Position numbers and translations under genes: made by a program | Shown: positions 48,365 to 59,070 of the stretch, in pieces | Position numbering within the stretch: the stretch's first letter is position 1 | Layout: each line of letters opens with the position of its first letter | Assembly (NCBI RefSeq): GCF_030546755.1 | Contig: NZ_JAUOPE010000001.1 | Location: 124,001 to 188,000 of the forward strand | Origin: Colwellia sp. 1_MG-2023 | GTDB taxonomy: Bacteria > Pseudomonadota > Gammaproteobacteria > Enterobacterales > Alteromonadaceae | Reading direction: 5' to 3' | Length of the DNA stretch: 64,000 bases | The notes under the pieces: generated by a model | Seen by the model: only the letters and a program-made list of their open reading frames with translations | Told to the model about the DNA's origin: nothing | Databases searched by the model: none

Positions 48365-49312
48365 TCACTCACTATTTTTTAATGCATAGTTAAAAATTTC
48401 TTGAAACTCAACTAACTGCTGTTGCGTTAGCATAAAAACTCCATGGCCACCCCGTTCAAAGGTTAACCATTGAAAATCAACTTCCGGATAAAGCGCTTCA
48501 ACATGTATTTGTGAATTACCAACTTCACATATCAAAATACCATCGTCATTTAAATGTTCAGCACTTTGAGCCAAGATTTTACGAACAATATCTAAACCAT
48601 CAGCGCCACAACCTAACCCCATTTCGGGTTCATGAGTAAACTCAGTTGGTAACGAGTCAATATCTTCTTGATCAACATAAGGAGGATTAGTGACAATTAA
48701 ATCATATTTCTGCCCTACTATCCCAGAAAAAACATCAGATTGAATTGGAATAACTTGTTCTGTTAACCCATGATTTTCAATATTTATCTGGGCAACATTT
48801 AAAGCGTCAATTGATAAATCGACCGCATCAACTTCAGCTTCTGGAAAATAACTCGCACAAGCAATTGCTATACAGCCACTACCTGTGCATAAATCAAGAA
48901 TGCGACCAACGCTTTTTTCATCATCAATAATAGGAGAAAAACGCTTTTCAATCCATTCACCAATGGGCGAACGAGGCACTAATACGCGCTCATCGACATA
49001 AAAAGGTAGATCAGCAAAATAAGCTTGGTTAGTAATATAAGCTGCCGGAATTTTTTGCTCAATTCGGCACTGAATAATCTCCAATGCTTGCCTTTTTTCT
49101 TCAATGGTTAATCGACATTGCATGATATGTTCGGTTAATTGGTCCGGTAATTCGAGAACAAACATGATTAACGTAATAGCTTCATCCCATGCATTATCAT
49201 GTCCATGACCAAAAAATAAATCAGCACGATTAAATTCACTCGCCGCATATCGAATATAGTCGGCTACGGTATGCAACTGCTCTGTTATATCTGTTGATTG
49301 CTGTATAACCAC
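48365..49312 (-). CDS. prmB: 50S ribosomal protein L3 glutamine methyltransferase PrmB
   Basis: PrmB methylates a Gln of ribosomal protein L3 using SAM. The SAM-binding motif DLCTGSGCIAIACA lies near residue 141 and the catalytic NPPY (in LIVTNPPYVDQED) near 208. The N-terminal helical part matches YfcB of E. coli rather than PrmC. The start is GTG, with GGGGAG four bases upstream; no ATG is available nearby. It is followed by aroC and divergent from smrB, the E. coli arrangement. Confidence 0.95.
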   Translation of the reverse strand: MVIQQSTDITEQLHTVADYIRYAASEFNRADLFFGHGHDNAWDEAITLIMFVLELPDQLTEHIMQCRLTIEEKRQALEIIQCRIEQKIPAAYITNQAYFADLPFYVDERVLVPRSPIGEWIEKRFSPIIDDEKSVGRILDLCTGSGCIAIACASYFPEAEVDAVDLSIDALNVAQINIENHGLTEQVIPIQSDVFSGIVGQKYDLIVTNPPYVDQEDIDSLPTEFTHEPEMGLGCGADGLDIVRKILAQSAEHLNDDGILICEVGNSQIHVEALYPEVDFQWLTFERGGHGVFMLTQQQLVEFQEIFNYALKNSE

Positions 49313-50656: not shown

Positions 50657-53440
50657 TTGAAACAAAGTCCTAATGATCACAAACAATATTTTCCATTTAC
50701 CTTGGAAAATGGTTTAAGGGTTTTAGCCGTACATAATAAAGACACGCAAAAGTCTGCAGCTGCCTTAGCCGTTAATGTCGGCCACTTTAGCGATCCTATT
50801 GATAGACAAGGTCTTGCTCACTTTTTAGAACATATGTTGTTTCTCGGGACAAAGAATTATCCTGATGGTAGTGAGTATCAGAAATTTATTAGCCAATATG
50901 GCGGTAGCAATAATGCATGGACAGCAACAGAACACACCTGTTTCTTTTTTGACATCCATCATCAACATTTTGAACCAGCATTAGACAGATTCAGCCAGTT
51001 CTTTATTTCACCACTATTATCTGAAGAGTTCGTCAATAAAGAGCGTAAAAATATTGACGCTGAATTTAAATTAAAATTAAAAGATGATATCCGACGTTTA
51101 TATGACGTACACAAAGAAACGATTAACCCTGAGCACCCTTTCGCAAAATTCTCAGTTGGTAATACCGAAACACTTTCAGATCGTCCAGGTAAACATTTAA
51201 GAGATGAAGTAGAAGATTTTTTTCTACAACATTATGTCGCTAAAGCAATGACGCTAGTCATTGAAGGGCCACAGTCATTAGAAATATTACAACAATTAGC
51301 AGTAGATAAATTCAGTGATATTTCAAGCAACGACATAAGTCAACGCAAGCCAGACATTCCTCTTTACCTACCAGAGCATCAACAAATATGCCTGCAAGTA
51401 AAACCGGTTAAAAATGATCGCCAGCTAATCCTCAGTTTTGCGATGCCAAGTATTGATGAATTCTATCGAGAAAAGCCTGAGTCGTTAATTTCCTACTTAA
51501 TGGGCCATGAAGGGCCGCATTCAATTTTATCTTTACTGAAAAAAAATCAATGGGCACTAGGCTTAACTGCAGGCTCAGGGGTCAATGGCTATAATTTTAA
51601 AGATTTTAATATTAGTATTCGTTTGACCCAAGCAGGCGAAAAACAGGTAGACGAAATTATATCTATCGTTTTTTCATATATTTACTTACTTAAACAAGCT
51701 CCGCTGGCCGAATATTACTATCAAGAAAAAAAGCAAATAGCAGAGCTATCTTTTCATTATCACGAAAAAATGAAACCGTTAGATTCGGTGAGTCAATTAG
51801 TCATTAACATGCAGCATTATCCTCAAGAAGATTACATTTTTGGTGATTATGTCATGGAGAACATGAATCAGCAGCAGTTAACTAATTTACTTAATTATTT
51901 AACTCCAGAGAATATGCGCACGATTTATATTAATAAAAATGTGCCCACCGACAAAGTTAGTCGTTGGTATCAAGTGCCATATCAAGTGGAAAAAATTGCA
52001 AAAAATCAGATAAACAAATGGCGTGAATGTCAATTACATCAAGAACTAGCTTTGCCACCTAAAAATAAATATATCGTTGAAAAACCAAAACTTTATGGAT
52101 TAAAAAAACCAGATAACTCGTTAACGCCACAATTATTTAAGCAAGAGAACGGTTTACAATTTTGGTATAAGCAAGATCATACTTTTAATGTCCCCAAAGG
52201 CTATATTTACCTTGGTATCGATAGCCCTAAAACATTAGAAAACGAAACGAATATAGCCATGACACGACTTTTTGTTGATTTATATACAGAGTCGGTCATT
52301 GAAAAACATTATGATGCGGAATTAGCCGGTATTCATTATCATTTGTACTCTCACCAAGGTGGCTTAACGCTGCAATTGTCTGGAGTTAGTGAAAACCAAG
52401 GCTTTTTACTCAAACAACTTTTAGCTGAGTTGCAAATGTTTTCTTTTTCTGAAGAAATTTTTCACTTGATGAAACAGCATTTAATTAATCATTGGAAAAA
52501 TGCAGATAACAGCAAATCAATTTCACAGTTATTTTCGGTTTTAAGTTCAACAATGCAACCAAAGTGCCCAAGCTCTGAAACGCTAGCAAATGCATTAATA
52601 AACGTTGACTTTCAACAGTTTAACGATTTTTGTCATACTATATTTAATGAGATTAATTTAGACGTGTTAGTCCATGGAAACTGGCGTGAACAAGACGCTG
52701 CTGAAATACATTCGATTATTAAACAAGCATTCAATGGACAATACGCTCAACAACACCAAGTAAAAATTCCTGTTTTAAATATAAAAGATCAAGCAAGTAT
52801 CCAATATCCTCTGCATCTTCCAGAACATGATTATGCGGGAGTTATTTATTACCCTATGGAAGAAAGAAGCTTATTGACTGTGGCTAAAACTATGATAGCG
52901 AGCCAAATTTTATCACCGCAGTTTTTCCACCAAATGCGTACTGAAAAACAATATGGTTATCTTGTTGGTGTAGGATTTGTCCCCATTAATCGCTACCCTG
53001 GCATCGCTTTTTATATTCAATCACCCAATTTTGAAGCAAACCTTTTACTTGAGGCAATGGATGAATTTATTAATGAATGCCATTTAGTGGTTGAAAACAT
53101 GCCTGAAGCAGATTGGCAACATTTACAACACGGACTTGCCAGTCAATTACAAGAGAAAGATACGAGTTTACGTATTAAGAGCCAACGCTTCTGGACATCA
53201 ATTTGTAATAAAGAAACTGATTTTAAGCAAAAGCAACATCTTATTGAAACCATATTGTCATTATCTAAAACTGATATATCTGAATTTTTATTTTCACAAA
53301 TAACGAATAATCAAGGCGTTATCGATAGATTCTGTTTGCTGTCGACAAAACAACCAAAAGAAGAGCAAAATTCAAACACCTCATTAAATGACTCACAATT
53401 ACTTGAATATATTTTCAAAAATTGCTCAATAAAATATTAA
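50657..53440 (+). CDS. M16-family (insulinase/pitrilysin-like) zinc metalloprotease
   Basis: This 927-residue protein has the four-lobed M16A arrangement seen in insulin-degrading enzyme and E. coli pitrilysin. The inverted zinc motif HFLEH (about residues 55-59) and the third ligand in ERKNIDAEFK near 135 are present. The C-terminal lobes keep the typical RTEKQYGYLVG segment. Unlike E. coli pitrilysin it has no signal peptide, so it probably works in the cytosol. The start is TTG with GGAG six bases upstream. It lies between sixA and the large GGDEF-EAL gene, where E. coli has nothing of the kind. Confidence 0.92.
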   Translation: MKQSPNDHKQYFPFTLENGLRVLAVHNKDTQKSAAALAVNVGHFSDPIDRQGLAHFLEHMLFLGTKNYPDGSEYQKFISQYGGSNNAWTATEHTCFFFDIHHQHFEPALDRFSQFFISPLLSEEFVNKERKNIDAEFKLKLKDDIRRLYDVHKETINPEHPFAKFSVGNTETLSDRPGKHLRDEVEDFFLQHYVAKAMTLVIEGPQSLEILQQLAVDKFSDISSNDISQRKPDIPLYLPEHQQICLQVKPVKNDRQLILSFAMPSIDEFYREKPESLISYLMGHEGPHSILSLLKKNQWALGLTAGSGVNGYNFKDFNISIRLTQAGEKQVDEIISIVFSYIYLLKQAPLAEYYYQEKKQIAELSFHYHEKMKPLDSVSQLVINMQHYPQEDYIFGDYVMENMNQQQLTNLLNYLTPENMRTIYINKNVPTDKVSRWYQVPYQVEKIAKNQINKWRECQLHQELALPPKNKYIVEKPKLYGLKKPDNSLTPQLFKQENGLQFWYKQDHTFNVPKGYIYLGIDSPKTLENETNIAMTRLFVDLYTESVIEKHYDAELAGIHYHLYSHQGGLTLQLSGVSENQGFLLKQLLAELQMFSFSEEIFHLMKQHLINHWKNADNSKSISQLFSVLSSTMQPKCPSSETLANALINVDFQQFNDFCHTIFNEINLDVLVHGNWREQDAAEIHSIIKQAFNGQYAQQHQVKIPVLNIKDQASIQYPLHLPEHDYAGVIYYPMEERSLLTVAKTMIASQILSPQFFHQMRTEKQYGYLVGVGFVPINRYPGIAFYIQSPNFEANLLLEAMDEFINECHLVVENMPEADWQHLQHGLASQLQEKDTSLRIKSQRFWTSICNKETDFKQKQHLIETILSLSKTDISEFLFSQITNNQGVIDRFCLLSTKQPKEEQNSNTSLNDSQLLEYIFKNCSIKY

Positions 53441-53586: not shown

Positions 53587-56500
53587 GTGCAATTTTCGTT
53601 TAATAGCTCTGCTTTTTTCCTACGTAACTCCCTGATTTTCTTGCCGCTATTATTTATATTTCTAATAGGTTTAAGTTTTTCTGCTTTTGCTGCTCCTGCC
53701 AATTATGATGAAAATTTAAAATTTAAGCATATTACTGCCGCTGACGGCCTATCACAAAGCTATGTTTTCGATATTATTCAAGATGAAGAAGGTTATATTT
53801 GGCTTGCCACTCAAGATGGTTTAAATAAATACGACGGAGCAAAATTTAAATATTATCGTAGTAATATTCTTGATGAACATTCTTTAGCAGATAATTATAT
53901 TCGAAAATTATTTAAAGATAGCTCAGGCGTTATTTGGGTTGGAACGCAAAATGGTTTGAGCCGTTACAATAAAAAACTAGATAGCTTTGACAATTTCACT
54001 TTAAATATCAACGAAGATAACACACTAATCGATAACACTATTTGGGATATTTATGAAGATAGAGCAAGCGAGACCACTAACTTAGATGTTCCTAATAATA
54101 TATGGGTGTCTACCGCAAAAGGTTTGCATAAATTTGATGTTGCTAATCAAGAGTTTATTAGGACTAAAATTCGACAGCCGAGTAATAACACCTCTATTAG
54201 TCCGCAAGAAATCAAAAGCATCTTTCACGACAAAAATGGCAATTATTGGTTTAGTAGCTACGATAATGGCTTCTATGTCACCAATAAAAATTTATCTATA
54301 GACAACTCTCTTCATAAGCAAATTCAAGCACAAATAGGCAATGAAACGACACAAATCAATAAAATTTTACTGATTGAAAAAGAATACTGGTTAGCGACTA
54401 ATACCGGCGTATATGTTTTAGATGAGCGATATGAATTAACAGAACAATATTCACTTACAGAAGCTGATTCACCAGCCATTCTTGCTAGAAATATAGCCGT
54501 TGCTAGCGATTCTCATATTTGGATCGCAACAGATGAAGGTTTAAAGTCGATAAACCCATTAAATGAAACATCAAAATCGCATCAATACAGTAATGTACAA
54601 GAACAAGAATATAATGATTATACCTATGGGTTATTAGTCGATAATACCGAAAAATTATGGGTTGGCTCTTTAAATGGGTTGTTTGTTCTAGCTCCAGAGT
54701 ACAATATAATTAAAGAAAGTAAGTTTTTAAGCGAGCTAACAAATACTAACATCACATCTTTTACTGCTATTAGTGACTCCGTTTGGTTTTCAAGTGACAA
54801 TGACATTTTTCAACTAACGCCTCAAAAACAAATCAAAAAAATAAATTTAAAGATAGATGGGCTCATTACACATATCCAAAGCAATGAAGCTGATATTTTT
54901 ATTATTACCGATAATAATCAACTATTTACTTATAATATTGAAAACAAAACCATAAATGAACATTCAAATTGGAAAACTAAATCAGACCACAACGGAATAG
55001 CTCCTATCTTTTATGGTGCTGAAAAGATTTGGTACTTAAATCAGTCAGGTGATCTTCGCAGTTATCACCCAAGCACAGAAAACTTTTATTCAACTCCCGA
55101 TGTTGATATAAAATTTACAAATTTATACTTAAACAATGATATTGAAATTTGGCTAACTTCAAAATCAGATAAAATAATTCAGTTCGATGTTAAAAATAAT
55201 AAATTCAATGAATTTAATCTTGAACACAACTCAAATTATCGTATCAACAACACAACTACGATCAATGTTTCTAAAGAAAATTTAATACTTGGTTCATATA
55301 ACCAAGGTGTATTATTAATCAATAAAGAATCCCATAAAACTCAACTATTTAATGAAGATAATTTACTTTCTAACAATTTCGTAGCTGACATCGTTAAAGA
55401 CCAATCAGACAATTTTTGGATAAGTACAAATAAAGGCATAAGCGTTTTTCAAAACAAAAATAGAAAAATTCAAAGTTTTTACATGGATTTTTCTATCAAT
55501 AATAATGAATATTTAAGTAAAAGCTCATTTATAGCTAATAAAGTAGTTTATATCGGCGGTAACAATGGTTTCCATTATTTCTCTCCTAAAGAATTACTCT
55601 CAGTAGAGCAATCCATCAATAAACCGGTATTATCTAATTTGCTTATTGCGAATAAAAAGATAAATATCGAACAAAAAAAACAAATTGAAAATTATACGCT
55701 TCCAGAAAGTTTAAATAATCTATCAAGCATCAAACTCAAATATATTCATTCCCCCTTTAGTATTGAGTTCGTGTCACCTAATGCTAAATTGCCATCGCAA
55801 ATTGGTTATAAATATAAACTTAATGGAGTAGATGAAAATTGGTTAGAAACGGATAAAGATAACCTCAGAGCAACTTACACAAACCTAAGTGCCGGCTCAT
55901 ATACCTTTGAAGTGCAAGCGTTCGATATTTATAATCCGGCAATTTTTAAATCTAAATCCATTGATGTGAAAATATTACCTCCCTGGTGGTTATCAAACAG
56001 TGCTGTATTAATTTACACCTTAACTATATTTCTCATTATCGCTTATTTACTGCAACAATTTCGTCATAAACGTTTATACCACTTACAGATTAAAGCCAGT
56101 GAAGAACGCTTGAAACTTTCACTATGGGGAAGTGGTGATGAAATGTGGGATTGGAATATTAAACGAGGAAAAATATATCGTTCTAATATTTGGGGTATTT
56201 TAGAGTTCCCACAAGACGGAAAACGTAACTTAGGTAATGACGGAGATAATGAAACCAATATAAATCAAGATGATATCGCCCGAATTACCCAATCATTACA
56301 AGAGCATTTTGATGAAAAAACCGAGCATTTCGAAGCTACCTATCGAGTAAAAGATAAAGACAACAAATGGATATGGGTACTCGACCGAGGAAAAATAGTC
56401 GAACGAGACGAAAACAATCAACCTTCTCGTATGACAGGCACATTGAAAGACATTAGCCAAATTAAGAAGGCGGATGAAAGGCTTAAATTATTTGCTAAAT

Positions 56501-58155
56501 GTATCGAAAATATTTCCGATGCTGTCGTCATTTACGATAGAAAGTTTAATATTGTCGATGTTAATAAATCATTTCAACGAATTACCGGTAAAGCAAAACG
56601 ACAAATGATTGGCAAACACATAGCTTTTAGCCGTTACCCTGACAGTTTCACTCAAGATGTAAAAAAACATTTACTTAATAAAGGTGGTTGGCACGGCGAG
56701 ATTGAAAGTAAACGTGATAATGGTGAATTATATTTAACTGATTTAAACATTGATATCATTCGAGACGAAAATAACAGTATTTCGCATTTTGTCGGCGTGT
56801 TTTCAGATATTACTAAACGCAAAGAAACCGAAGCAGAGTTAAGAAAGCTCGCCAATTCAGATACCTTAACAGGTTTACCTAATCGTTCTTTCTTTCAAGC
56901 GAACCAAGCACGTTTAGTTAAAAATAAAATTTCGCATGCGTTATTAGTTTTTGACTTAGATAACTTTAAAAAAGTCAATGATTCAATGGGTCATGAAGTC
57001 GGTGATTTACTGCTGTGTAAAGTGGCGCAAAGAATAAAAAATATTGGCCGTCAACTTGATACCGTTTACCGTTTAGGTGGCGATGAATTTAGTATCATTA
57101 TTGAGGATACTAATGATATTCATACTATAACCACCATAGCAAAGAAAATTTTAAGCACTATTGCTCAGCCTTTAAAACTGAAAAATCAAGAAATAGTACT
57201 TTATTCTAGTATCGGTATTGTACTTTATCCTGAAGATGGCACATCTCCTCAAGAGTTATTAAAAAATGCCGACACAGCCATGTATCACGCAAAACATAAT
57301 GGCGGTAATCAATACCAATTCTTTAACGGTTCAATGAATAAGAAAGCGGTAAAACGCTTACAAATTGAAGGCTTGATCCGTCATGGTTTAAAAGAAGATT
57401 TTTTCTCTGTTTATTATCAACCCAAAATAGAAATATCAACCGGTAAAGTCGCGGGTATGGAAGCCTTGGTGCGTTTTGAAACACCAAGCAAAGGTATTAT
57501 AAGTCCTGTAGTTTTCATTCCTGTTTCGGAAGAAACTGGACAAATCATAGATATTGGTGAAACAGTATTGAGAAAATCATGCTTTGCAACAAAACAATGG
57601 CTTGATGCTGGCTTATTTGATGGACGTATTGCCGTTAACCTTTCTGCGGTACAATTTACCCAACCTAATCTTGTTGGCATGATTGAAGGTATCTTGAAAG
57701 AAAGCCAATTGCCAGCGAAGCACCTAGAATTAGAAATAACCGAAGGAACGGTCATGGACTCTCCACAAAGAGCCATAGAAACCATGTTGCAAATTCGCGC
57801 GATGGGGATTCATTTATCATTAGATGATTTTGGTACCGGTTATTCGTCCTTAGCCTATTTGAAAAAATTCCCTTTAAACACCTTAAAAATAGATAAAGCT
57901 TTTGTCGACGACATAGAGTCATCTGAACAAGGTCGTAACATGGTTGCCACCATTGTTACTATCGCACATAACCTCGGCTTACAGGTTGTCGCTGAAGGGG
58001 TAGAAACTAATCAACAGCTAAGTTTCTTATCTGGATTACGTTGTGAACAGATGCAAGGCTATTTATATAGCAAACCATTACCAGAAAAAGACTTTCGCCG
58101 CTATTTACTTTCTCATCAGATCACTGACAAATCTACGACTTTTAATAAAAATTAA
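53587..58155 (+). CDS. Hybrid c-di-GMP sensor: two-component-type propeller, Y_Y_Y, PAS-PAS, GGDEF and EAL
   Basis: This 1522-residue inner-membrane protein joins a large periplasmic sensor to cytosolic c-di-GMP domains. A signal peptide or anchor lies at 1-36. Regulator-propeller repeats (such as DEEGYIWLATQDGLNKYDG) run from about 45 to 680. A Y_Y_Y domain lies near 720-795 and a membrane helix near 803-822. Two PAS domains follow at about 845-960 and 970-1080. The GGDEF motif (RLGGDEF, about 1164) is intact, with an RQLD inhibitory site five residues before it. The EAL motif (MEALVRF, about 1290) and later DDFGTGYSS and EGVET are intact too. It may make, break or switch c-di-GMP. The start is GTG with AAGG eight bases upstream. 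Confidence 0.94.
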   Translation: MQFSFNSSAFFLRNSLIFLPLLFIFLIGLSFSAFAAPANYDENLKFKHITAADGLSQSYVFDIIQDEEGYIWLATQDGLNKYDGAKFKYYRSNILDEHSLADNYIRKLFKDSSGVIWVGTQNGLSRYNKKLDSFDNFTLNINEDNTLIDNTIWDIYEDRASETTNLDVPNNIWVSTAKGLHKFDVANQEFIRTKIRQPSNNTSISPQEIKSIFHDKNGNYWFSSYDNGFYVTNKNLSIDNSLHKQIQAQIGNETTQINKILLIEKEYWLATNTGVYVLDERYELTEQYSLTEADSPAILARNIAVASDSHIWIATDEGLKSINPLNETSKSHQYSNVQEQEYNDYTYGLLVDNTEKLWVGSLNGLFVLAPEYNIIKESKFLSELTNTNITSFTAISDSVWFSSDNDIFQLTPQKQIKKINLKIDGLITHIQSNEADIFIITDNNQLFTYNIENKTINEHSNWKTKSDHNGIAPIFYGAEKIWYLNQSGDLRSYHPSTENFYSTPDVDIKFTNLYLNNDIEIWLTSKSDKIIQFDVKNNKFNEFNLEHNSNYRINNTTTINVSKENLILGSYNQGVLLINKESHKTQLFNEDNLLSNNFVADIVKDQSDNFWISTNKGISVFQNKNRKIQSFYMDFSINNNEYLSKSSFIANKVVYIGGNNGFHYFSPKELLSVEQSINKPVLSNLLIANKKINIEQKKQIENYTLPESLNNLSSIKLKYIHSPFSIEFVSPNAKLPSQIGYKYKLNGVDENWLETDKDNLRATYTNLSAGSYTFEVQAFDIYNPAIFKSKSIDVKILPPWWLSNSAVLIYTLTIFLIIAYLLQQFRHKRLYHLQIKASEERLKLSLWGSGDEMWDWNIKRGKIYRSNIWGILEFPQDGKRNLGNDGDNETNINQDDIARITQSLQEHFDEKTEHFEATYRVKDKDNKWIWVLDRGKIVERDENNQPSRMTGTLKDISQIKKADERLKLFAKCIENISDAVVIYDRKFNIVDVNKSFQRITGKAKRQMIGKHIAFSRYPDSFTQDVKKHLLNKGGWHGEIESKRDNGELYLTDLNIDIIRDENNSISHFVGVFSDITKRKETEAELRKLANSDTLTGLPNRSFFQANQARLVKNKISHALLVFDLDNFKKVNDSMGHEVGDLLLCKVAQRIKNIGRQLDTVYRLGGDEFSIIIEDTNDIHTITTIAKKILSTIAQPLKLKNQEIVLYSSIGIVLYPEDGTSPQELLKNADTAMYHAKHNGGNQYQFFNGSMNKKAVKRLQIEGLIRHGLKEDFFSVYYQPKIEISTGKVAGMEALVRFETPSKGIISPVVFIPVSEETGQIIDIGETVLRKSCFATKQWLDAGLFDGRIAVNLSAVQFTQPNLVGMIEGILKESQLPAKHLELEITEGTVMDSPQRAIETMLQIRAMGIHLSLDDFGTGYSSLAYLKKFPLNTLKIDKAFVDDIESSEQGRNMVATIVTIAHNLGLQVVAEGVETNQQLSFLSGLRCEQMQGYLYSKPLPEKDFRRYLLSHQITDKSTTFNKN

Positions 58156-58190: not shown

Positions 58191-58230
58191 TAAATCCATC
58201 GCAAAGCCAATAAAAATAGAGCTTTGCGTA

Positions 58231-58248
58231 TTGGCACACTTATCGCTT
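58231..58248 (+). promoter_or_regulatory. Candidate sigma-54 (-24/-12) promoter of the repeat-peptide operon
   Basis: The sequence reads TTGGCAC, five bases, then TCGCTT. The invariant GG (58233-58234) and GC (58245-58246) are separated by exactly 10 bp, as RpoN promoters require. It differs from the consensus TTGGCACG-N4-TTGCTT mainly by one base in the -12 element. Transcription would begin near 58258, leaving a leader of about 34 nt before the ATG at 58292. Confidence 0.55.
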
Positions 58249-58291
58249 TACTTCCTTCGAGTTATTTAACCAATCAGAAAGGAATATATAA

Positions 58292-58624
58292 ATGTTAAGT
58301 TCAATAATTTTATCTCTAGCGATGAACGCAGCTCCAGTTCCAAGTGTTGATGTAGTAACGTTAGATATAGAACAAGTGGGTACTAAGCGCAGTGAAATCA
58401 GATTAAATAATAAATTTGAATCAATTGAAGTTGGTACAAAGCGCGGTGAAATCAGATTAAACAATAGATTTGAATCAATTGAAGTTGGAACAAAGCGTGG
58501 TGAAATCAGATTAAACAATAAATTTGAATCAATTGAAGTTGGAACAAAGCGTGGTGAAATCAGATTAAACAATAAATTTGAATCAATTGAAGTTGGTACA
58601 AAGCGCAGTGAAATCAGACTTTAG
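58292..58624 (+). CDS. Small protein made of 18-residue tandem repeats
   Basis: I do not recognise this 110-residue protein. The first 20 residues are hydrophobic and end MNAAPVPS, which resembles a signal peptide but lacks a positive N-region. From residue 30 on, the unit GTKRGEIRLNNKFESIEV repeats four times, and a final partial unit ends at EIRL and a TAG stop. The repeats alternate basic and acidic residues around hydrophobic ones, suggesting beta strands. AAAGGA eight bases before the ATG supports translation on this strand. A second small ORF follows 9 bp later. It may be a secreted or membrane-associated structural peptide, or a precursor. The function is unknown. Confidence 0.65.
   Translation: MLSSIILSLAMNAAPVPSVDVVTLDIEQVGTKRSEIRLNNKFESIEVGTKRGEIRLNNRFESIEVGTKRGEIRLNNKFESIEVGTKRGEIRLNNKFESIEVGTKRSEIRL
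58379..58624 (+). repeat. 54-bp direct tandem repeat array, 4.6 units
   Basis: Units lie at 58379-58432, 58433-58486, 58487-58540, 58541-58594 and a partial 58595-58624. Units 3 and 4 are identical and the others differ by a few bases, so copy number has probably changed recently by slippage or recombination. The period is a multiple of three, so the frame is kept, and the opposite strand stays open too. Confidence 0.95.
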
Positions 58625-58633
58625 GAGATAATT

Positions 58634-58738
58634 ATGATCAAACTAATTAAGTCATTATTTGTTGAAACACCTAAAGAAAACGCAATTGCTGCAACAATTG
58701 TAATTAAAGAAATGCCTGCTAAATCTTTGTGGTCTTAA
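58634..58738 (+). CDS. 34-residue small ORF of the repeat-peptide operon
   Basis: This short frame starts at ATG 58634 with AGGAGA six bases upstream, one of the best ribosome binding sites in the window, 9 bp after the repeat-protein stop. The product begins MIKLIKSLFVETPKENA and ends AKSLWS. The first ten residues could form a small cationic amphipathic helix. I do not recognise a family. The tight spacing and strong binding site say that it is translated along with the repeat protein. Confidence 0.6.
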   Translation: MIKLIKSLFVETPKENAIAATIVIKEMPAKSLWS

Positions 58739-58764: not shown

Positions 58765-58810
58765 CTTAGATATTCGCTACACGGACGGTAGCGGCTATAT
58801 TTTAGCTAAG
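58765..58810. repeat. Imperfect long hairpin after the small-ORF operon
   Basis: An inner perfect stem CGCTAC/GTAGCG (loop ACGGACG) is extended outward by ATAT/ATAT and CTTAG/CTAAG with small bulges. It lies 27 bp after the 34-residue ORF. It lacks a T run, so it may stabilise the 3' end rather than terminate. Confidence 0.45.
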
Positions 58811-58866: not shown

Positions 58867-59070
58867 TTACGCTCTGAAAATTAAACAATTAAATCCGAAT
58901 AATCGATTTATTTTCATGCGCTTTTTCATGTTAAACATTGGCCAAATAAATGGGCCAAACATAAAACCTGCAAACGCCCAGCGCTTACGCCCTAAACCGT
59001 TTGATAATGCTTGGCAATAGAAAAATATAGAAAACATTAGTGCAACGATAACAACAAGTAACGACAACAT
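58867..59070 (-). CDS. Small predicted membrane protein
   Basis: The 67-residue product has a hydrophobic N-terminal helix (about residues 2-21), a basic loop GLGRKRW, a second hydrophobic stretch (FAGFMFGPFIWPMF) and a Lys/Arg-rich stretch KKRMK. This looks like a genuine two-helix inner-membrane protein. AGGT lies five bases before the ATG. I do not know its function. It lies between the small-ORF operon and fadJ, on the strand of fadJ, and has terminator hairpins just upstream, so it is probably transcribed on its own. Confidence 0.55.
   Translation of the reverse strand: MLSLLVVIVALMFSIFFYCQALSNGLGRKRWAFAGFMFGPFIWPMFNMKKRMKINRLFGFNCLIFRA

Follow-up and report, generated by a model that had tools for sequence, protein, structure and literature searches.

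A sigma-54-type peptide operon adjoining a membrane GGDEF-EAL sensor in Colwellia and its relatives, a possible propeptide-receptor cassette

The window, a stretch of 64,000 nucleotides from Colwellia sp. 1_MG-2023, harbors a compact operon of two small genes on its forward strand (all positions are those of the window). A sigma-54-type -24/-12 promoter, TTGGCACACTTATCGCT (58231-58247), recognized by sequence and conservation, precedes the ribosome binding site AAAGGA (58278-58283) and ORF1 (58292-58624), a putative repeat precursor of 110 aa assigned from the ORF list, a repeat search and coding constraint. Within ORF1, the repeat search delimits a tandem array of 4.5 copies of a 54-bp unit with 94% matches (58374-58618). 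A second ribosome binding site, AGGAG (58623-58627), leads into ORF2 (58634-58738), located 9 bp behind ORF1; the ORF list, a profile and codon comparison identify it as a companion peptide of 34 residues, whose family mostly ends in AxxWW or similar. Both ribosome sites are of the AGGA type. Folding further places a hairpin, CGCTACACGGACGGTAGCG (58775-58793, forward strand), at the 3′ end, with GGA in its loop in the manner of a CsrA site and also with a terminator-like score. The coordinates of both ORFs, the 9-bp gap, the 18-residue (54-bp) repeat and the ribosome sites agree with the original prediction, which had the layout right and had not seen the link to a sensor, the 3′ hairpin or the species specificity of the repeats.

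Upstream of the operon, the ORF list and Pfam identify a sensor gene encoding 1522 aa (53587-58155, forward strand), regarded here as a candidate peptide receptor. Its near-constant upstream neighbor is an M16 peptidase with a PqqF-like C-terminal domain (50657-53440, forward strand; Pfam), whose sequence has no obvious signal peptide. An inverted repeat, CGCAAAGC..GCTTTGCG (58200-58228, forward strand), located just 5′ of the promoter, probably serves to terminate transcription of the sensor gene; inspection by eye showed comparable repeats at the equivalent place in several other loci. The genes downstream are convergent and combine 3-hydroxyacyl-CoA dehydrogenase/enoyl-CoA hydratase and thiolase domains, which we read as fadJ and fadI. 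Between the peptide operon and fadJ lies a convergent, membrane-type ORF of 67 aa (58867-59070, reverse strand), with relatives at the equivalent place in several other genera and also, when read antisense, in g3 genomes devoid of the peptide. Ten further window genes are, by their Pfam names, of housekeeping or transport types, and a small-methyltransferase gene, prmB-like by reading, is found 9 kb from the operon (48365-49312). The neighbors common to 28 loci are the window's own, part of them annotated. A search of the whole window against Rfam gave no match. Among the Pfam-scanned genes between 42.4 and 64 kb, neither a modification enzyme nor a dedicated exporter was recognized beside ORF1, and next to the operon the conserved M16 peptidase was the sole candidate recognized for a processing protease or exporter. 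The original prediction had likewise argued against a classical natural-product cluster from the lack of a modification enzyme or transporter gene; the adjacent upstream membrane GGDEF-EAL sensor had escaped it.

ORF1 begins with the leader MLSSIILSLAMNAAPVP.. and continues with five GTKR[SG]EIRL units separated by acidic spacers of nine residues. Of 196 genomes from the window's GTDB family, 31 gave matches to ORF1, including one seemingly unrelated protein (L030) that was rejected as a DUF4097-like chain by eye. The unit varies between relatives (GTRRGQVRI, GTRPGTVRI, GKSKAEVRI, GDKRGSIRI, GRKGIRI, SSNRIRIQPA, AKGRGIKV) and is nearly uniform inside one array; among members of a clade it is the leader that is conserved, not the unit. 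A second kind of precursor, termed MLK type, starts with MLKAYAxAL..PVA.. and carries C-terminal units such as WKPGSVRI, KAIKVGSVRF, (ALKPRGSIRT)x3 or RPGNGIGF. Arrays were called by rule in 85 of 137 precursors; many others are single-unit, and in many genera one unit sits in a precursor of 44-60 residues, within an overall range of about 44 to 374 aa. The C-terminus of a unit is commonly R or K followed by I, F, L or V, and in 88 of 133 precursors called as complete the last two residues are R/K and a hydrophobic one (61 RI, 12 RF). From residue 21 to the end, net charge has a median of +5 (range -4 to +42, 133 precursors), and cysteine occurs beyond residue 20 in 4/133.

Several observations point to translation of both ORFs. 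The period is a multiple of three in 59/59 arrays detected at the DNA level, and unit-to-unit differences in these arrays fall on codon positions 1, 2 and 3 in numbers of 596, 462 and 1120 (8, 7 and 14 for the window's own array). Single-base codon differences between units comprise 983 synonymous and 324 nonsynonymous ones, with 25% synonymous expected, for arrays chosen by protein identity, a choice that favors synonymous changes. For ORF2, pairs diverged by at most 25%, which are not independent of each other, differ at the three codon positions 1213, 814 and 3020 times. Translation of ORF1 and ORF2 is therefore well supported by these comparative data. Coding constraint, visible in the codon-position patterns of ORF1 arrays and ORF2 pairs, and homologues with conserved start and ribosome site, the two properties on which the original prediction had made itself dependent, are both present. 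Its statement that neither protein resembles a known family is borne out as well: for the two ORFs and their relatives, the Pfam and NCBIfam matches either stay below threshold or are driven by composition, and none spans the protein. ORF1 reaches a sum score of 30.8 bits against PF08964 (cut-off 27.3 bits), with no stretch passing by itself and a best one of 15 residues, and it has a weak DUF4097 (toastrack) match. PDB sequences held nothing describing the precursors. AlphaFold yielded no confident fold for ORF1 (pLDDT 42, from a shallow alignment of eight sequences), a value that neither supports nor disproves a beta-solenoid, which had been considered as a candidate fold.

The leaders of the precursor family differ in how closely they match export signals. 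Family f16, family f7 and part of f6 have leaders that by eye resemble textbook signal peptides, for instance MKSLVLASTLVLSLVAGSAMAA and MKKALSGLVVLVCASFQSDAA, and the MLK type combines one N-terminal lysine with a hydrophobic stretch. Leaders of the window's clade are short and for the most part without charge; across all types, the first 12 residues have a net charge of zero in 81 of 133 precursors. Because the leader often lacks N-terminal charge, Sec export is insecure for the array precursors of this clade. Judged by the look of the leaders, the precursor family is likely exported, and export of the window's ORF1 is uncertain. The secreted or envelope-associated nature that the original prediction proposed is still putative, although leaders in other families have the classic appearance of signal peptides.

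The sensor is composed of an N-terminal membrane segment, two RegProp propellers, a Y_Y_Y domain, a further membrane segment, and PAS, GGDEF and EAL domains, with intact GGDEF (residue 1164) and EAL (residue 1292) motifs and no TPR match. AlphaFold modeled residues 1-880 with a pLDDT of 84 and a pTM of 0.76, and the closest solved fold of the ectodomain is BT4663 (4a2l/4a2m; TM 0.69/0.81, sequence E 5e-156), a sensor of heparin/heparan sulphate. The genome also encodes a paralogue of this sensor.

The promoter element has GG-N10-GC spacing and is close to the consensus TTGGCAC..GC. One -24/-12 match in 64 kb compares with 0.85 expected in shuffled sequence and thus is at chance level by itself; the weight of the window's promoter comes from conservation of the pattern across sensor loci. 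Within 450 bp downstream of the sensor, TGGYAYN7GC is found in 134/164 loci versus a shuffle mean of 2.4 (max 5), and the controls gave 19/815 coding stretches and 2/164 on the reverse strand. A strict form of the promoter occurs downstream of 101 sensors versus 0.2 in shuffles. The median distance from the GC to the start codon is 51 at sensor loci, and a Shine-Dalgarno-like site stands ahead of the precursor in 122 of 137. The genome has one rpoN, judged by a single Sigma54_DBD match over cut-off. Sigma-54 control of ORF1-ORF2 is very likely on the basis of this conservation. The element at 58231-58247 is thereby confirmed with the spacing originally described, and the proposed sigma-54 micro-operon of the two small genes gains comparative support from conserved promoters, starts, ribosome sites and coding constraint. 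Four g14 loci (L096, L098/L194, L103, L104) from large genomes have a single-unit precursor with ORF2 and GGA-rich 3′ ends, and no sigma-54 match.

A promoter and a small precursor lie directly 3′ of the sensor in 137 of 170 distinct loci, a set that includes loci found via ORF1 or ORF2 and hence is biased to positives. The precursor is visible in 135 of these 137 rows; at L150 and L294 the script picked a wrong ORF and the true one was seen separately, at L287 and L049 it picked an early start or promoter, and all four stay counted. Sets collected by the sensor only were a search of 196 genomes of the family, the best 80 of 419 loci and an order-wide search. The periplasmic part matched 102 of the 196 family genomes at E <=1e-40, among which 62 have a strong sensor, defined by our own cut as at least 330 bits. 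ORF2 was positive in 61 of the 196 genomes, and 59 genomes have both a strong sensor and ORF2. The mismatches comprise a divergent ORF2 recognized by eye (G158), sequences stopping at contig ends (G048, G080), a sensor fragment only (G057) and a weak ORF2 match without a promoter (G058). At the 40 weaker sensor loci, a sigma-54 element and a small precursor, mostly of MLK type, were present in 32 of the 37 read, and the five without a precursor belong to four g3 genomes and G029, seemingly not an orthologue.

Among the best 80 of 419 loci from named genomes, 69 were automatic positives, and a later rule gave 72/78 distinct ones. They come from Colwellia, Cognaticolwellia, Pseudocolwellia, Thalassotalea, Thalassomonas, Litorilituus, Bowmanella, Lacimicrobium, Neiella, Idiomarina, Aestuariibacter, Paraglaciecola, Aliiglaciecola, Alteromonas and Neptunicella. 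Among the 11 loci that were not automatic positives, the contig stops within the precursor at L182, L193 and L230, the sequence ends inside the sensor or right after it at L189, L224 and L225, and L194 has a precursor and no promoter match. A Kangiellaceae record (L254) displays a AHNARGVDPRLAT array behind a clear signal-type N-terminus, with a weak promoter match only. No precursor was found at L226 or within the 340 bp available downstream at L203. At L202 (Colwellia maritima), the promoter and array are intact and the leader is in a different frame from the array, possibly a recent loss.

The order-wide sensor search matched 113 of 394 genomes, and by eye a precursor-like ORF was present in 25 of the 40 downstream stretches read. 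Ten loci of family f6, probably Shewanellaceae, have a promoter and mostly arrays of 13-residue units such as AGLPNIKFVDTQV, reaching 374 aa, several of these units not being strongly cationic. Family f16 carries WRKIDI-type units (4/4), and three f15 loci have a short precursor followed by ORF2, with one full promoter match and two restricted to the -24 part. Arrays without a good promoter match were found at four f7 loci of g129 and g144, the g129 locus L276 being the Kangiellaceae record L254 again. The 15 of 40 without a precursor are seven g58 loci, L290, L295-L298, L308 (contig end), L309 and L310. One of them, L295 (family f4), has a sensor relative followed by a 59-residue ORF that ends in LEAHNAEEWFV and is reminiscent of an ORF2 with a hydrophobic leader joined to it. 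A class-wide sensor search gave 7/369 genomes at E <=1e-50, three of them in the own family; one match (L270) was scored and has no precursor. In all, sensors without a precursor include five g3 loci, one g79 locus, the seven g58 loci, in which a transketolase-like gene comes next, and L226 of Colwellia sp. C2M11. Across these searches, linkage of the precursor operon to the sensor is well supported.

An ORF2 profile matched 85 of 395 same-family genomes and 19 of 52 genera (E <=0.01, a few weak matches included), and 10 of 394 genomes in the order-wide draw, where the sole match outside the family has stops. Three genomes, G445, G058 and G076, gave weak matches only (E 0.004 to 0.007); G445 has internal stops and G058 has no promoter. 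By motif, ORF2 follows the precursor in 86 of 95 non-MLK loci and in 0 of 38 MLK loci. It ends in AxxWW or close to it in 75 of these 86, with a consensus end of ..PAxxWW among array-type loci; the window's copy ends in AKSLWS. In most g52 genomes (L124-L134), ORF2 is duplicated in tandem, the second copy usually being the weaker match.

Behind ORF2, folding detects a GGA-loop hairpin in 53 of 78 distinct stretches, versus a shuffle mean of 4.7 (max 11); most g52 genomes are among the 25/78 negatives. This rule supersedes an earlier, stricter one (25/80); it misses visible hairpins (L010, L079, L082) and passes doubtful ones (L022, L129). The stems differ in sequence and are equal in shape, with compensatory changes judged by eye, and ACA and GU flank the GGA in most hairpins, again by eye. 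According to PMC7652899, the CsrA SELEX consensus is RUACARGGAUGU, with ACA and GGA invariant and GU after them. The hairpins here resemble the CsrA/RsmA targets reviewed there by being mostly ACA-NGGA-N-GU with GGA in the loop, and they differ from them in that the message, which encodes peptides, has one putative site, located at its 3′ end. The genome has one csrA. The peptide message is probably CsrA-regulated. A CsrA system has been described in Alteromonas, and the portion of that description available to us does not contain this locus (PMC5864184).

We compared the divergence of the unit, taken as the last nine residues of the precursor, with that of the sensor domains. In 84 full-length pairs, the partial Mantel correlation between unit and ectodomain given the cytoplasmic domain is 0.37 (0/999 permutations), and the reverse, unit with cytoplasmic domain given the ectodomain, is -0.08. 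When M16, the cytoplasmic part and the leader are all controlled for, the correlation of unit and ectodomain is 0.22 in 83 pairs, 0.27 in 58 array-type pairs and 0.36 in 25 MLK-type pairs, values reached by at most 3/499 permutations. In the 25 MLK-type pairs, however, the unit correlates with the cytoplasmic part as well (0.25, 20/999; 0.28, 7/499), and over all 83 pairs it shows a slight correlation with M16 (0.14, 24/499). The leader, used as a control against the ectodomain, gave weak values of 0.13 (11/499), 0.16 and 0.05. Joint divergence of the unit with the periplasmic domain of the sensor, overall stronger than with the cytoplasmic domain, is suggestive, because tests of the partial Mantel kind are liberal and, among the compared domains, the ectodomain diverges fastest (mean distance 1.61 vs 0.45 and 1.07).

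A receptor-type gene, a separate promoter, a leader-bearing and hypervariable precursor, and joint divergence lead us to read the locus as a peptide-signal system. The explanation we favor, tentatively, is a propeptide-receptor cassette in which precursor peptides are read by the adjacent sensor with a c-di-GMP output. A separate, sigma-54-driven operon behind the sensor gene would make ORF1, an export-type precursor consisting of a short hydrophobic leader and one or many copies of a mostly basic unit. The precursor would be exported and cut into short peptides, for which the periplasmic double propeller of the neighboring sensor may be the binding site. Binding would alter the GGDEF/EAL output, so that c-di-GMP would report the peptide level and with it the presence of the own population or kin, or the state of the envelope. 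The copy number of the array might set the dose, and combined change of unit and ectodomain would confer species specificity. ORF2 would be a translated companion, perhaps bound to the membrane surface, that assists or restrains the precursor, and the CsrA-type hairpin may make the message responsive to carbon status. The case for M16 as an indispensable processing protease is weakened by loci that have the pair without M16 and by its lack of an obvious signal peptide. Several observations speak against the cassette: BT4663, the closest solved relative of the ectodomain, senses a glycan, some sensors have no precursor, leaders of the window's clade often lack N-terminal charge, M16 was the sole candidate protease or exporter recognized beside the operon, and the joint divergence is not clean. 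We put slightly less trust in the wider proposal of a widespread Gram-negative peptide-hormone system, in which tandem propeptides, transcribed by sigma-54 and timed by CsrA, would diverge jointly with an adjacent receptor that writes or erases c-di-GMP; as read here, it would span Colwellia, Thalassotalea, Alteromonas-type genera, Neiella, a Kangiellaceae member and further families.

The strongest rival, unlikely in our estimate and yet a serious one, is that the sensor responds to a glycan or some other compound from outside the cell and that ORF1 is an effector produced in that response, a small repeat protein of the surface, matrix or envelope. The unit would then be structural, and the two genes would share a pathway and not a ligand. 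The BT4663 fold, as in Bacteroides HTCS sensors, argues for it, as do the scaffold-like length of the f6 arrays and the weak toastrack match of ORF1. Yet a single unit in a short precursor, as seen in many genera, is more in keeping with a peptide than with a scaffold, the shallow-alignment model of ORF1 shows no confident fold, and the unit is hypervariable next to a conserved leader and tracks the ectodomain, with the reservations given above. We consider it improbable that ORF1 is a secreted cationic antimicrobial or a RiPP-like multi-core precursor, with the sensor serving self-sensing or immunity. The median charge of +5 and the leader followed by repeated, hypervariable cores would suit such a product, but the Pfam scan of the window recognized no modification enzyme or dedicated exporter beside ORF1, cysteines are rare beyond residue 20, and several f6 units are not strongly cationic.

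A marginally less probable alternative is plain conserved gene order, with the peptide operon behind the sensor by descent only. Conserved order by itself proves little, because M16 and fadJ/fadI are conserved neighbors too and need not be partners; fadJ lies downstream even in f6, f15 and f20 loci. However, within the stretches examined, the pair is kept without both M16 and fadJ at L137 and in the Kangiellaceae record, without M16 at L194, and without fadJ at L229, L209 and downstream of the four f16 loci, and the joint divergence likewise speaks against this alternative. Least probable of all is that the transcript acts mainly as a CsrA-binding RNA, either a sponge or a CsrA-timed message, with the peptides mattering less: the 53/78 hairpins and their likeness to the SELEX consensus of PMC7652899 agree with it, but both ORFs are under strong coding constraint, there is usually one hairpin, and 25/78 stretches are negative by the folding rule.

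Our searches of open PMC text found no description of this system or its kind. The combination of precursor, receptor class, promoter type and organism group is unlike any propeptide system known to us. Yeast alpha-factor and RFamide precursors have a signal-type leader and tandem short units that are species-specific. The bacterial precursors, which have no homology to these, share with such eukaryotic propeptides a leader and tandem species-specific units, several ending in RF or RI. In Phr, the active part lies at the C-terminus and the precursor gene has its own alternative-sigma promoter; an active part at the C-terminus is proposed here too, and the promoter is again an alternative-sigma one of its own. 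In RRNPP systems, the propeptide and receptor genes are adjacent (PMC10075063). Rap-Phr and kin of Firmicutes are the closest likeness, with a receptor gene next to a small precursor gene and a short leader. RRNPP propeptides are 10-100 aa long and leave via Sec or SHP export, compared with about 44 to 374 aa and hydrophobic leaders here. Unlike RRNPP, the present systems are Gram-negative, their candidate receptor is a membrane-bound double-propeller GGDEF-EAL protein instead of a cytoplasmic TPR protein of 250-500 aa, and they often have tandem unit arrays, ORF2, a CsrA-type hairpin and sigma-54. The cassette thus resembles RRNPP in layout and is not a member, since receptor type and compartment differ.

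The sensor shares its periplasmic ectodomain of two RegProp propellers and Y_Y_Y with Bacteroides hybrid two-component sensors such as BT4663 (4a2l/4a2m), and differs from them by its PAS-GGDEF-EAL output, which takes the place of a histidine kinase and response regulator. Genes for the Bacteroides sensors stand in the context of polysaccharide utilisation loci, whereas the sensor gene here is followed by a peptide precursor.

In Gram-positive bacteria, peptide signals with dedicated receptors are the rule; to our knowledge, genetically encoded peptide-receptor pairs are hardly known from Gram-negatives. Should the glycan explanation be right, the locus would still represent an undescribed family of peptides, transcribed by sigma-54, probably under CsrA regulation and tied to a c-di-GMP sensor. 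If the cassette holds, the 137 loci would represent more than 100 natural, species-matched candidate peptide-receptor pairs, each of them operon-sized, whose ligand, specificity and c-di-GMP output are directly addressable with short synthetic peptides, and RegProp sensors from outside Bacteroides would gain the units as a class of candidate ligands.
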